NCBI GenBank assembly: GCA_017996375.1
Contig: JAGOHC010000004.1
Coordinates: 1-52,835, forward strand
Source: Saprospiraceae bacterium
GTDB lineage: Bacteria > Bacteroidota > Bacteroidia > Chitinophagales > Saprospiraceae
DNA length: 52,835 bases
Reading direction: 5' to 3'
How positions within the stretch are numbered: position 1 is the first letter of the stretch; the number at the start of each line of letters is the position of its first letter. Below, piece after piece: positions 1,548-6,845 of the stretch. The notes under the pieces were generated by a model. It was not told where the DNA came from. It made no database searches and saw only the letters and a program-made list of their open reading frames with translations. The position numbers were made by a program, and so were the translations under genes.

Positions 1548-4500
1548 TTATCGTTTAACCACTTTTGTAACAACCACTTCGTTATCGCTTTTCACTTTTA
1601 CAACATACATGCCTGTCGGCAAATGAGCAATATTAATTGTCTTATTAATATAATTAGATTGGCTTTGCAGCGCAATATTTTCGAGAACTTTGCCATCTAA
1701 AGCCGTGATAGAAATATCATAAGGCTTTGCTCTTTCGCTGCTGATGCCGATATTGAGTATATCGTGTGCAGGGTTTGGCGAAATGCTCACCGCAAACGAA
1801 GACGCATTTATCTCGTGTGTGTTTAATACACTGCCCGGCTGAACTACCGTTCCTCTTCCCGTTGGTATTTTGCAGATATTATCACCCTGTTCAGTGGTTA
1901 CGCATACTTCGCTTAAATAATTTTTCATATCTATCACTTCAAAATCATCAATAAACCAGCCACCACCTGTAGGTGCTTCGATGAGCGAATCGGATACAAA
2001 GCGATAGCGGAATATGGCATCTTGCCCGATGTATGCTGATAGGTCTGCATAGGTTGTTTGATAGTTTGAGCTGTTGCCTGTAAACACATATTGGTTAGGT
2101 AGCGGAACCGACGAATAAGAAATGATACCATCATAGCCTTTACGGAACATTTTACTACCTAAATCAAACCAAGTGTTGCCACCATTAGTTGATACCTGTA
2201 CAAAGCCGCCATCGTTTTTTAAACCTACATTATATTTGTGTGCAAAACGCAAAACAGGCTGTGTGCCGGCAATAGTCACCTCGTTTATCATATCTAATAT
2301 TTGGTCATTAGTATTAAGGGTTATGGGCACTTGCCAAATCGTGTTGGGGCTTGGTGCCGTAGGAGAAGTGCCAACACTCCACGTATCGCTACCGCGATTA
2401 CTAAGCACCTCCCAGTTAAAGTCGCCGTTTTCGAGGTTATCATAAAAAATACGTGTAGAAAGTACATTATCAGGTGTGTTGAGTTTGTACGAAAGTGTAA
2501 TTGAATCGCCTACGTTCAAATTATTAACTGTAAAGTTTACTTCGCTACCTGCAGAAGTGCCACCGTTGTTTGCAGAGCCTGCGACATAAGTTGTGCCAAC
2601 CGGAATATAATCGCGGATGACAACATTTGACACCGGATTTTCTTTATAATTGATAAGTTTAATTGTAACGATAATTTGGTCGCCCGCCATAATTGTCGGT
2701 GTTACCGTTTTGGTCACTTTTAGTTCGTTGGAGCAGAAGGGATATGTTTCAAAACTACTGACACCATCTAAAGCAGAGTTGCTACTACCTTGCGAAGCAT
2801 AATAACCCAATCCGCGCCGCGCAAAAACATTCCAAATAAGGCATTGATCCGCACCATTATTAAACTCCATATCTGCTGCCAAGATAGCGTCGCGCCCGTC
2901 TTCAAAACCCGGAGTACAGGGTTGTAGCTTCATGCCATCCATCACTAATTGTATAGCTTTGTTGTTGCCGGCATTGCCGTTTAACAAATCAGCACTCCAG
3001 CCGTATTTATCCACCATTGCCCAATATAAATCCCAGAGCATAGCTGTCCAAATTTCGCCAACGGCGTGAACTTCTGTATTTTCTGCTACATTATCATATA
3101 CTAAAGGGTTTAGTGCCATATCCGTGGCGTACGGGTAACGGCGTATACCAGTACCTTGATTTTGTTCGCGCAACACATACGTACCGACCCCCCTTCTACG
3201 TTGGCTTACATCATCAGAATTTACAGTGGTAACGAGGCCGATAAAATCGCTCCAGCCCTCACCCATTTGTTCTGCATTACCTAAACAATTGGAATTTTGT
3301 GGACCGCCTGTCAAGCGGTTAGATATGCCGTGTGCATATTCGTGTGCGATGATGCCATTGTCAAAGTCGCCATCTAAATTATCCGGTCCTTCTTGTACTG
3401 CCGGTTCTTGCAACGCTACCATTAACCCGTTATCTACTTGTGTGCGGATTATCTGACAATCGCTTTTCTTTAACTGTACAACGGGAATGGTAACATCGTT
3501 TCCGCAAATGCCACTACCCATATTAAGTAATTCGTCAAGGTGATTACAAATGATGACTGCAATGGCACCTGCGTTTTGAGCATTAAGAGATTTGCAACCG
3601 AACTCACACTCGCCTCTGTCTATGAGTACTATTTTACCTTGCACATCATTGATGAGTGGGAAGCAAGCACGTGTTGGACTGGCGGAGCCATCATCGGCGA
3701 TAGCCACTGCTCCTGAAACTGGCGTGGTGGTTATTGCTCCACCCCAACCTTGTGCATCGGCACGCGAAGATTCGTATGAACCCGCTACTTGTGCTGGTGC
3801 TGTGACATTAAACACACGGCTACCTGAGGCTGCTTCGCGCGTCCACAGATACATTTGCATTACACCACTTTGCCCGTCGTTAGGTGTAGCAAAATTGGCA
3901 TTGTTTGTACCGCTACCGTCTTGTGCTTCTGCTTTTACCGGATCATTACCTGTGCCACCTGTACCATAGTTGTTTTGTTGAAATGCACCTGCTGGTCCGT
4001 CCATACCATAATTATATGCAAAATCGTGCATAGCATTACACATATAAAATAAGTTGGTGACGGCAGCATTGCCATAATTAGTTGGCTCGGCATTTACATC
4101 ATCAAAAGGGTAGTCGAATATTAGTGCAGCACCACCGTTAGGTTCAGGATAGGCGGGGTTGGGTGCATTGCTGTTGGCAATATCCAAATAAGCATGTGCA
4201 TTATTTCCGCGTGTGATGGTGTATTCTGCCCCGATTGCGCCGTTGGTATCATGCCAACCGTAGGGCGATGCTGTAGGGTCTGCGGGGTCAGTTAGTAATG
4301 TGTAGTCGCCGTGTGCAGGGCTTTCTATCGGAAGTGGGAATACGCGATATTGTGCTGTTACACTAGTAGGCGTAAATTGCTGTGTATCATCATTTTTTGT
4401 TATAAGATTATGGTTCGCTTCGACACAATTGTCTTCGTGCTGGTAGGTGTCTTTATGGAACTGACAATGCGTCATTAAATCCTGTTTTTTGATAATGCTA

Positions 4501-5117
4501 CCGCTTAGGGCATCTACTTGAATACTCCACAAGTGTTGCGCTTGGCGCGGATGGAATTGTACGTTCCAAGCCAACTTGATGGGTGTTTCTTTATCGGTAG
4601 CAACATAGTTTAAGGTCACGCGAATATCGTCTGTTGAGCCTGTTGCTGCTTCAAAAATGTAAGTGTGTTCGTTGGGCTGTTCCTTTATGCGAAGAGGCGC
4701 AGCAGATTGCCCCACTTCTTGTTTGGCAAAGGTTATTGCTTGTTCTGCCGATATTGCAGCGATGCTGGCATTGCAGCGATTTTTCATATCGGGTTCAAAC
4801 CTTTTGCCTACGTGAAAGACCTTACCTTTTGCATTTACATTGACGTTGAGGATGCCGTTGTAAAGTTCTATGCCCGCGTTGCGTTGCACAAAAAATATGT
4901 GTGTTGCGCCATTGTTACTACTTTGATATTGGTATTGCACCGCCATATCACGAATGTCTGCGTCAGTTAACCCCCAATCGGTGTAGTGTTGTTCAATATA
5001 GCGTAGCGCTGCATCCACTGATGTTTGGGTTTGGGTTTGTGCTATGAGTATTGATTGGCTATACACACAACAAACTAACCAGAACATCGTCCGAAATGAT
5101 TTGGAAAGATTCATCAT
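1548..5117 (-). CDS. Secreted M36 (fungalysin) metalloprotease with PA domain and T9SS sorting domain
   Basis: The 1189-residue product starts with a signal peptide ending near SILIAQ (residue 26). A fungalysin-type propeptide and PepSY-like region fill about 30-220. The catalytic domain carries the zinc motif HEYAH at 592-596 and the third ligand Glu620 in GEGWSD, the spacing expected for M36. A protease-associated (PA) domain (about 425-575, with GKIVLIDRGECEFG) is inserted just before the zinc motif. After the catalytic domain come a DUF11-like adhesive repeat (about 796-880), a beta-sandwich region resembling those of immune-inhibitor-A proteases (about 895-1070) and a type A sorting domain (SISPNPAHD near 1110 to the end, finishing KVVKR). 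The protein should be exported through Sec, matured by removal of the propeptide, and carried to the surface by T9SS. A paralogue without the PA insert is at 45566-48904. Confidence 0.96.
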   Translation of the reverse strand: MMNLSKSFRTMFWLVCCVYSQSILIAQTQTQTSVDAALRYIEQHYTDWGLTDADIRDMAVQYQYQSSNNGATHIFFVQRNAGIELYNGILNVNVNAKGKVFHVGKRFEPDMKNRCNASIAAISAEQAITFAKQEVGQSAAPLRIKEQPNEHTYIFEAATGSTDDIRVTLNYVATDKETPIKLAWNVQFHPRQAQHLWSIQVDALSGSIIKKQDLMTHCQFHKDTYQHEDNCVEANHNLITKNDDTQQFTPTSVTAQYRVFPLPIESPAHGDYTLLTDPADPTASPYGWHDTNGAIGAEYTITRGNNAHAYLDIANSNAPNPAYPEPNGGAALIFDYPFDDVNAEPTNYGNAAVTNLFYMCNAMHDFAYNYGMDGPAGAFQQNNYGTGGTGNDPVKAEAQDGSGTNNANFATPNDGQSGVMQMYLWTREAASGSRVFNVTAPAQVAGSYESSRADAQGWGGAITTTPVSGAVAIADDGSASPTRACFPLINDVQGKIVLIDRGECEFGCKSLNAQNAGAIAVIICNHLDELLNMGSGICGNDVTIPVVQLKKSDCQIIRTQVDNGLMVALQEPAVQEGPDNLDGDFDNGIIAHEYAHGISNRLTGGPQNSNCLGNAEQMGEGWSDFIGLVTTVNSDDVSQRRRGVGTYVLREQNQGTGIRRYPYATDMALNPLVYDNVAENTEVHAVGEIWTAMLWDLYWAMVDKYGWSADLLNGNAGNNKAIQLVMDGMKLQPCTPGFEDGRDAILAADMEFNNGADQCLIWNVFARRGLGYYASQGSSNSALDGVSSFETYPFCSNELKVTKTVTPTIMAGDQIIVTIKLINYKENPVSNVVIRDYIPVGTTYVAGSANNGGTSAGSEVNFTVNNLNVGDSITLSYKLNTPDNVLSTRIFYDNLENGDFNWEVLSNRGSDTWSVGTSPTAPSPNTIWQVPITLNTNDQILDMINEVTIAGTQPVLRFAHKYNVGLKNDGGFVQVSTNGGNTWFDLGSKMFRKGYDGIISYSSVPLPNQYVFTGNSSNYQTTYADLSAYIGQDAIFRYRFVSDSLIEAPTGGGWFIDDFEVIDMKNYLSEVCVTTEQGDNICKIPTGRGTVVQPGSVLNTHEINASSFAVSISPNPAHDILNIGISSERAKPYDISITALDGKVLENIALQSQSNYINKTINIAHLPTGMYVVKVKSDNEVVVTKVVKR

Positions 5118-5175: not shown

Positions 5176-5240
5176 ATTTTTATTCACAAAAAATTATGTT
5201 AATGCAGATGAATAAGCACCTCAATATGCGAAAAATAAAA

Positions 5241-5275
5241 AGCCCCGACTCTTCAAACTGAGTCGGGGCTTTTTA
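5241..5275. terminator. Strong rho-independent terminator
   Basis: AGCCCCGACT (5241-5250) pairs perfectly with AGTCGGGGCT (5261-5270) around a 10-nt loop, extended by one more C-G pair. It is flanked by A-rich and T-rich runs, so it could work in both directions. It sits upstream of the M36 promoter; on the minus strand it would stop read-through from the enoyl-CoA hydratase gene about 800 bases away. No plus-strand gene directly precedes it. Confidence 0.8.
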
Positions 5276-5353
5276 TTTTGTTTTGAACTTCTGAAAAGTA
5301 CCTTGTTTAAGGTTGGTTTGTTTTGATTTTGTAAGTGCCCAAAGCGCACTTTT

Positions 5354-5668
5354 TTACAACAAATTTTATAATCCCATGAACATTTTAAGCATTTTAGATA
5401 ATCTCTTTCTTCGCATCTTTTCCTTTTCTCGTAATCCTCTAAGAGAGAGAGACGCGGGTTGCGAAGCTAACTTTTTAAACTTCGCAACCCGCTTACAACA
5501 AAATTATAATCCCATGAACATTTTAAGCATTTTAGATAATCTCTTTCCCTGCATCTTTTCCTTTTCTCGTAATCCTCTAAGAGAGAGAGACGCGAGTTGC
5601 GAAGCTAACTTTTTAAACTTCGCAACCCGCTTACAACAAAATTATAATCCCATGAACATTTTAAGCGA
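5354..5668. repeat. 138-bp tandem repeat with internal hairpin (two full units plus a partial third)
   Basis: The words ATCCCATGAACATTTTAAGC recur starting at 5371, 5509 and 5647, exactly 138 bases apart. Each complete unit contains an inverted repeat, GCGGGTTGCGAAG ... CTTCGCAACCCGC (5454-5466 with 5480-5492; second copy 5592-5604 with 5618-5630, one arm mismatch), with a 13-nt loop. The third unit breaks off after about 35 bases. Units differ by only a few substitutions, plus one single-base length difference at the left edge, suggesting recent duplication. Because 138 is a multiple of three the repeat leaves an open frame (5313-5678), but this looks like a by-product rather than a gene. 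Confidence 0.9.
5454..5492. other. 13-bp palindromic hairpin inside the repeat unit (first copy)
   Basis: Left arm 5454-5466 and right arm 5480-5492 are perfectly complementary, with loop 5467-5479. It is preceded by an AG-rich track (AAGAGAGAGAGACGC). It may be a structured RNA, a mobile palindromic element or a recombination hot spot; the sequence alone does not decide. Confidence 0.75.
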
Positions 5669-5678
5669 AAGAACTTGA

Positions 5679-6062
5679 TTTGGGGTGCTGTTATTATTTG
5701 TTCGTTTTGATGATACAAAGATGTACCGATAACCCTCTAAAAACAAAGACAAAAATATACGATTGTGAATAAATTTATTTTACAATTATATGTATATATA
5801 TTTATATAATTATTGATAATCAATCAATTACAATAATTATTATTAGTGAAAACTTTTACTTTTGTGAAATATAATTTCATAAAATGAGTGTATTTTTAAA
5901 TAAAAATATTTTTATTTTTTTGTCTAAAGGCAGTTTTTACTGCGATGTGAGCGAAAAAAACGAAACAAAATAGCTCTCTCCCCGCACTTGTCATTTGCTG
6001 AAGTGTATATATTTATGGGGTTGTTCCGACTTAGTTATGTGAAAACTTTTATTTGGCGCAGT
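5679..6062. other. AT-rich intergenic stretch
   Basis: Very A+T-rich, with long runs of A/T alternation between 5740 and 5930. I see no gene, no convincing terminator hairpin and no promoter box that can be linked to a neighbour. Confidence 0.6.
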
Positions 6063-6845
6063 TTATTTGCCTGTAAAATTTGGTCTGCGCTTTTCAACAA
6101 AAGCTGCCGCGCCTTCCTTAAAGTCTTGGGTATTGCAACATTTGCCAAAACCGATTATCTCATAGGCATAGCCATCCTTGTCTCTATCAAAATAGGCTTG
6201 TACGCACTCCATCACCTTCGATATGGCGAATGGTGCTTTGGTAGCAATTCTTTCGAGCATATCAATGGCAGCAGCAACCTCTTCGCCTACCGCAACCACT
6301 TTATTTACCAATCCTAAGCGAAGAGCTTCTTCTGCATTAATCATATCGCCGGTAAGGAGCAACTCTAATGCTTTGGCTTTACCAATCAGTTGCGGCAAGC
6401 GTTGAGTGGCGCCGTATCCGGGTATCAACCCCAAGTTTACTTCGGGCTGACCGAAGCGTGCTTTTTCGCCTGCAATGCGTAAATGACACGCCATTGCTAA
6501 TTCGCAACCACCGCCCAAAGCGAAGCCTTGTATGGCTGCAATGACTGGTTTATGGAATGTTTCAATCAGTCGAAAAATATCTTGCCCACGTTGAGATAGC
6601 ATGGCGCCAGCATTGGCATCCAACCCTGCAAACTCTTTGATATCTGCTCCGGCGGCGAATGCTTTGTCACCTGCTCCTGTAATCACTACGCCTGCCAAAT
6701 TAGGGATGGTGGCAGCACCGGTAGCGAAGAAGCTACGCAAATCGTTGAATACAAATTTGTTGAGGGCATTGAGTGCATCGGGGCGATTGATAGTTAATAT
6801 TACAACTCCGTTTCTATTCTCTACTAAAAGTGTTTCGTATGTCAT
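6063..6845 (-). CDS. Enoyl-CoA hydratase/isomerase (crotonase family)
   Basis: A complete 260-residue crotonase-fold protein. The oxyanion-hole and CoA-binding segment AFAAGADIKE is at 62-71, and the two glutamates used by true hydratases are both present: Glu115 in GGGCELA and Glu135 in FGQPEVNLGLIPG. Such enzymes add water to trans-2-enoyl-CoA in fatty-acid or amino-acid breakdown in the cytoplasm. The gene stands alone, divergent from the 3-hydroxyanthranilate dioxygenase gene. The acyl-CoA range cannot be read from sequence; a short-chain enzyme is the default inference from length. Confidence 0.93.
   Translation of the reverse strand: MTYETLLVENRNGVVILTINRPDALNALNKFVFNDLRSFFATGAATIPNLAGVVITGAGDKAFAAGADIKEFAGLDANAGAMLSQRGQDIFRLIETFHKPVIAAIQGFALGGGCELAMACHLRIAGEKARFGQPEVNLGLIPGYGATQRLPQLIGKAKALELLLTGDMINAEEALRLGLVNKVVAVGEEVAAAIDMLERIATKAPFAISKVMECVQAYFDRDKDGYAYEIIGFGKCCNTQDFKEGAAAFVEKRRPNFTGK

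Follow-up and report, generated by a model that had tools for sequence, protein, structure and literature searches.

What is the 138-bp tandem repeat that lies between two protein genes of a Saprospiraceae bacterium? The window we analysed is a stretch of 52,835 nucleotides, contig C57 of this bacterium's assembly (2.78 Mb, 242 contigs). The original prediction, made from the letters of that stretch, left two readings standing: a dispersed palindromic element of the REP or MITE kind, or a structured RNA family. Judged by its sequence, the array belongs to an RNA-like gene read from the minus strand, a member of a set found across the Saprospiraceae. We hold the RNA-gene part of our explanation to be nearly certain. 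The weak step is the pairing mechanism that we prefer for it, and most of the argument below concerns that step.

The array itself is as it had been described. TRF reports a single array with a period of 138, 2.3 copies, 96% matches and a score of 582. The two full units (5366-5503 and 5504-5641) agree at 134 of 138 positions (97%), differing at 5410-5412 and 5457 in the coordinates of the first unit. The claim of a hairpin per unit is confirmed, since each full unit has one with 13-nt arms. The arms of the first (5454-5466 and 5480-5492) pair at 100% and those of the second (5592-5604 and 5618-5630) at 92% on the plus strand. The odd pair of the second is an A-C mismatch on the plus strand and a G-U pair on the minus strand, so the stems of a minus-strand RNA pair fully. 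The non-coding setting is also correct: the gap is flanked at 1548-5117 by an M36 peptidase gene whose product has a T9SS sorting tail, and at 6063-6845 by an enoyl-CoA hydratase gene, both on the minus strand. An open frame of 121 aa spans the array on the plus strand (5313-5678); it stays open across the array because 138 is 3 x 46, and we judge it spurious. A broken third unit had been read as a hint of further copies in other strains. The piece is there (5642-5666, with 25 of 25 bases matching the unit), and the break is explained by the architecture: the repeated unit is motif, hairpin and spacer, and the third motif adjoins the unique 5' leader of the RNA. Recent expansion fits the near-identity of the window units, as it fits an array of five near-identical modules at 139-149 bp spacing in another genome (G168).

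Features of the predicted RNA gene and its tandem array in the window
Feature	Position	Strand	Basis
Conserved CACAA element upstream of the promoter	5763..5767	-	Profile of 97 good promoter matches; pattern match 5714-5767
Promoter box 1, TTTTTGTCTTTGT (-33 region)	5743..5755	-	Promoter profile
Promoter box 2, ATCTTTGTATCATCA (-7 region and predicted start)	5708..5722	-	Profile; predicted start near 5709
Predicted noncoding RNA, about 478 nt	5232..5709	-	Promoter and end hairpin; fold z -6.3; ends inferred
138-bp tandem array: motif, hairpin and spacer twice, then a bare motif	5354..5666	-	TRF, repeat search
Motif 1, ATGTTCATGGGATTATA	5643..5659	-	Motif search
Hairpin after motif 1	5592..5630	-	Inverted repeat
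Motif 2, ATGTTCATGGGATTATA	5505..5521	-	Motif search
Hairpin after motif 2	5454..5492	-	Inverted repeat
Motif 3, ATGTTCATGGGATTATA	5367..5383	-	Motif search
Short stem-loop after motif 3, without T-run	5333..5351	-	Fold
20-bp perfect inverted repeat ending in TTTTTATTTT, likely terminator	5232..5279	-	Symmetric, usable from both sides

The unit has relatives only in part. Uniqueness to this site had been named as evidence against a dispersed or family element; the whole 138-bp unit finds a full match here only, whereas a core of about 25-40 bases recurs, with three further copies on another contig of the same genome (C192). We read modules on the ATGTTCATGGGATTATA strand, which is the minus strand of the window, allowing up to 3 mismatches. 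The loci examined hold 326 modules in 159 clusters, a count that includes five viral-contig loci and one probable chance locus (L055) and in which some clusters are truncated by contig ends. Clusters have one module (54), two (59), three (32), four (13) or six (1), at a median spacing of 167; at 1 mismatch or fewer the count is 287, with 1-5 modules to a cluster. Of the 302 modules that have sufficient flank and no more than 2 mismatches, 299 have a hairpin behind the motif, and these hairpins have 285 distinct sequences. Folding is concentrated in them: the following hairpin has a mean z of -4.9 (95% below -2 among 78 sampled modules), control stretches (n=77) a mean of -0.3, the stretch before the motif a weaker -1.4 and the motif itself +0.6, that is, unpaired. 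An alignment of 44 diverse modules has 14 invariant and 5 nearly invariant bases; their hairpins cannot be aligned, and RNAalifold detects no shared pairs. By sequence, a module is a near-invariant, unpaired GGAU-AUGUUCAUGGGAUUAUA-AUUUG, then a hairpin of free sequence within about 20 nt. The predicted RNA of the window carries three copies of AUGUUCAUGGGAUUAUA. Its own genome has six exact modules at two loci. A third locus (L225, C79:39786-39806, minus strand) has one variant module, TTCATGAGATTATAATTTGTT, with a hairpin and then a T-run behind it. This module belongs to a subtype, TTCATGAGATTATRATTTG with terminator, of which the loci examined give 4 distinct copies and which also occurs in G027 and G001.

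The core is present in 24 of 37 Saprospiraceae genomes, the window's own included, and in none of 23 genomes from other families of the order. A wider search with a 20-base pattern (at most 2 mismatches) matches 128 of 150 Saprospiraceae genomes and 99 of 112 genera. Reversed as a control, the pattern matches 5 times over the whole listing. We also built a model of the motif region, R1, which uses sequence only because RNAalifold gave no common pair. It matched 6 of the 22 pattern-negative genomes at E up to 0.05. Two of these (G004 and G091) have two adjacent motifs each, with hairpins, so at least 130 of 150 Saprospiraceae genomes carry the motif. The matches in G150, G121 and G093 look like chance, and G137 has no motif within the mismatch limits. 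At least 119 loci carry the motif in the scan of named genomes. Among the 80 matches listed there, the titles read Saprospiraceae, Saprospirales, Lewinellaceae, Chitinophagales, Phaeodactylibacter, Flavilitoribacter or plain Bacteroidetes, Bacteroidia or Bacteroidota, and Phaeodactylibacter luteus and Flavilitoribacter nigricans are cultured carriers. Beyond the family there are scattered inexact matches only: one of 130 genomes at the level of the order (1 mismatch) and 9 of 196 at the level of the class (10 matches with exactly 2 mismatches; reversed control 0). Two of these ten were inspected, in G396 and G389, and both are without a strong hairpin; the latter reads as a gene start on the opposite strand. 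Rfam 15 gave no gathering-score match in the 10 loci scanned, and permissive scans of the window stretch and of one other locus (L012) gave sub-threshold rows only. The literature we searched, part of which makes no mention of Saprospiraceae, held nothing on this motif RNA. The RNA family is apparently undescribed.

Which strand is transcribed? The first module of a cluster is preceded by a conserved layout, CACAA-N8-TTTTGTCTTTG-N21-ATATTTGTA. A score of at least 20 out of 27 is reached by 97 of 151 first modules against 10 of 167 later modules and 2 of 318 shuffles; the profile was drawn from the same first modules that it scored, and the later modules and shuffles are its controls. The spacing between the boxes is 33 in 92 of those 97 matches. 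A Bacteroidota sigma-ABfr promoter has TTTG near -33 and TAnnTTTG near -7. Here both TTTG boxes are present at a fixed spacing, but the second reads ATATTTG and not strictly TAnnTTTG. We believe that the predicted promoter before the first module is of the Bacteroidota type. A wider search finds it at 102 of 142 clusters. A strict form of the pattern matches just two loci in the window's own genome, both of them RNA loci; among relatives it matches in just 3 of 20 genomes, being too stringent for the majority. In G001 at least one strict match precedes an apparent protein gene, and there (L233, L235) the same layout stands before a transcript with a degenerate motif and an apparent protein gene.

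The other end of the clusters is marked as well, with a run of at least six T within 75 nt after 126 of 154 last modules against 39 of 167 inner ones. The hairpins are more stable as RNA on the motif strand than on the opposite strand, by more than composition accounts for (-3.0 kcal/mol against -1.3 in shuffles, p 2.6e-14). Since the G-U asymmetry, the promoter and the T-runs all agree, we infer that the window RNA is transcribed on the minus strand. Its fold has a z of -6.3, and none of 100 shuffles was as stable; a simple terminator scan gave no flag at the end hairpin. Of the two readings originally offered, then, the structured RNA family is supported by the family-wide motif, the hairpins that follow it, the promoter, the T-runs and the strand-specific stability, and the RNA of the window is most likely a noncoding regulator.

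The genes around the clusters are mixed. The largest recurrent group, present on the upstream side of 25 of 159 clusters, is a cytochrome-c-peroxidase-like gene, named by reading its sequence. Upstream genes point the same way as the cluster in 93 cases and the opposite way in 43. In a type III toxin-antitoxin RNA the toxin gene lies directly downstream of the RNA repeats. Downstream neighbours here are mixed, with a largest group of 15 of 159 clusters. The exact 19-base motif also occurs in five IMG/VR contigs (L067 to L071), two of which have clear phage genes. L071 has tail sheath, tape measure and baseplate genes, with a module at 6654-6730 on the plus strand, 7 nt after a tail-protein gene, and L067 encodes a primase and a DnaB-like helicase. 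The tail-fibre matches of L068 are weak, and its module sits 15 nt after a gene end. L070 matches one phage family, mostly of unknown function, and the single protein tested from L069 matched no phage family.

Several readings other than a regulatory RNA have to be weighed against these data. REP elements and MITEs are short intergenic palindromes that occur in clusters, as these loci do, and hairpins beside a conserved stretch in near-identical tandem copies would suit such a DNA element. However, it is the unpaired stretch that is conserved here and the hairpins that are free in sequence (285 distinct of 299), there are few loci in each genome, and the promoter, the T-runs and the strand-specific stability also speak against it. 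We consider this the least probable of all the readings. Could the motif and hairpin instead mark and protect the 3' ends of transcripts, with tandem clusters as by-products? The two viral modules that lie 7 and 15 nt after a gene fit this, as do the 30 of 142 clusters without a promoter, 21 of which are single modules. Against it are the majority of clusters that have a promoter of their own and a conservation of the motif far beyond what an end signal needs, so we think it unlikely. Lower still we place a tiny peptide (AUG UUC AUG GGA UUA UAA) or a ribosome-stalling frame. Among 44 variants changed in TTATAA, the stop at codon 6 survives in 19, and 22 stop in frame somewhere in codons 4-8, where the other frames give 10 and 12. 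This comparison is biased towards the consensus frame, which has its stop from the outset. A T-to-C change at position 12, seen in about 9% of 54 variants, keeps leucine. Yet 98% of the same 54 variants have A as the last base of GGA, bases 7, 8, 10 and 11 are the most fixed, and there is no codon rhythm. This variation by codon position makes the micro-ORF improbable, though stop retention leans the other way.

The serious rival is an RNA that titrates a protein, in the manner of CsrB or RsmZ with another protein: the repeated unpaired site would capture an RNA-binding protein and the number of modules would set the amount. About 20 unpaired bases that are near-invariant in about 100 genera, in independent modules of variable spacing, are what such an RNA might look like, and repeating one site along a transcript is more usual among RNAs that capture proteins, which counts against a seed. 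CsrB and RsmZ have several copies of one binding site per RNA, and so does this one, but its site lies between hairpins, before the hairpin and not in its loop. CsrA was found in control genomes and in none of the 36 genomes searched, 23 of them Saprospiraceae, so a CsrA sponge is rejected. RRM proteins do not track the RNA either: among 24 Saprospiraceae genomes 16 have both, 4 the RNA only and 4 an RRM gene only (one of these last four, G004, does carry the RNA on later inspection of its motifs), and we find no co-occurrence that would make an RRM protein the partner. There is also one conserved gene start that is complementary to the motif. We therefore regard titration as doubtful, though to be taken seriously, and prefer seed pairing. 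The explanation we favour, at a probability of roughly 0.45, is a transcribed, trans-acting, multi-copy regulatory sRNA that resembles the FopS sRNAs, with its seed repeated in each transcript and pairing with the start regions of targets. The unpaired stretch, whose complement reads AAUCCCAUGAACAU, would be a seed that base-pairs around the start codons of target mRNAs and lowers their translation, as FopS sRNAs do in Bacteroides. The hairpins would insulate and stabilise each seed, and tandem copies would give more seeds per transcript.

Is there a pairing signal at gene starts? In general there is no clear excess. The motif was scored as a duplex against 574 gene starts in 800 kb of one genome (G147). 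Its mean was -11.06 and that of 25 shuffled motifs -11.03 +- 0.31, a result from which the rival of protein capture gains. Column-permutation tests show a small excess of long runs: 4 where 1.7 were expected, and 4 where 1.5 were. Windows at gene starts with 14 or more contiguous pairs number 2 in G147 against 0.6 expected, in other genes, and 5 at other loci against 0.7 expected, all orthologues of one gene. In the gene starts of G147 (L237-L276), C is the most frequent base at both positions preceding ATG (32 and 33%, 573-574 starts), so they often read CCATGAA.

That one gene, which lies upstream of the RNA, is a candidate target of seed pairing, and a likely one, in part of the Saprospiraceae. 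It encodes a T9SS-secreted Ig/cadherin-like protein (Pfam, 3 copies), and we have 11 copies (L085, L087, L124, L151, L173, L175, L187, L257/L280, L281, L286 and L289). Its start element, of the kind AAATCCACGAATCCATGAATGTAT, is conserved in nucleotides and complementary to the motif, although protein identity to the G147 copy is just 31-39%. From copy to copy the reading frame of the bases that precede the start differs, which points to an element that acts at the RNA level. Depending on the copy, between 0 and 24 of 500 shuffled motifs attain its duplex energy. For 7 copies the locus extends far enough to include the RNA, and there the motif follows the start of the gene by 2.9-3.4 kb on the same strand. 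In P. luteus (L085) RNA and gene stand side by side, the coordinates in G147 and G026 fit this arrangement too, and in G017 the gene and the RNA match on separate contigs. A search for the start pattern gave 15 matches in 13 of 150 genomes against 4 in the control, with the pattern tied to the Ig-like gene in only 4 of the 150, and the search showed no such element in the genome of the window itself. A second complementary match, in L063/L064, turns out to be a degenerate module read on its opposite strand. The Ig-like gene start is thus a lead for part of the family and no proof of a target.

The closest known system is that of the FopS and GibS sRNAs of Bacteroides thetaiotaomicron, which are reported to be multi-copy, with an unpaired seed, then a terminator, and pairing at start codons (PMC11697453, PMC7366714, PMC9723704). 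Both these sRNAs (PMC11697453, PMC7366714) and the probable sRNA studied here form multi-copy families of Bacteroidota with their own promoters, which here look Bacteroidota-type. As in FopS, a conserved unpaired seed precedes a hairpin or terminator (motif z +0.6 and hairpin z -4.9 here) and a phage-borne copy is known; in the Saprospiraceae RNA start-codon pairing is no more than a candidate. Unlike FopS as there described, the seed is repeated up to six times in one transcript, the host family is another, no matching Rfam family was seen, and an RRM protein, which is RbpB for FopS, appears dispensable by distribution, with 4 of 24 genomes having the RNA and no detected RRM gene. We do not claim membership of the FopS family. 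The LhrC and Qrr sibling sRNAs, as covered in one of the same reports (PMC11697453), also present several near-identical seeds per genome. They come from other phyla and are separate genes, and homology to them was compared through Rfam only.

Tentatively, we suggest a further reading, in which this would be a regulator in a class by itself: a multivalent RNA whose dosage can be tuned, with a variable number of identical unpaired sites between free hairpins, serving a partner in the Saprospiraceae that may be a protein or a core set of mRNAs, in genomes without detected CsrA. Viruses of these bacteria would carry single modules to capture or imitate the host system.

To our knowledge, riboregulation in the Bacteroidota beyond Bacteroides and a few flavobacteria is little explored. 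The Saprospiraceae are abundant in wastewater plants (PMC9304909). By the sequence evidence they have a family-wide and strand-specific RNA gene, which would act by seed pairing, the mechanism we prefer, or by protein capture. Because the RNA is family-wide, with near-invariant sites, natural variation in copy number and cultured carriers, both its partner and the logic of a repeated seed are directly testable.
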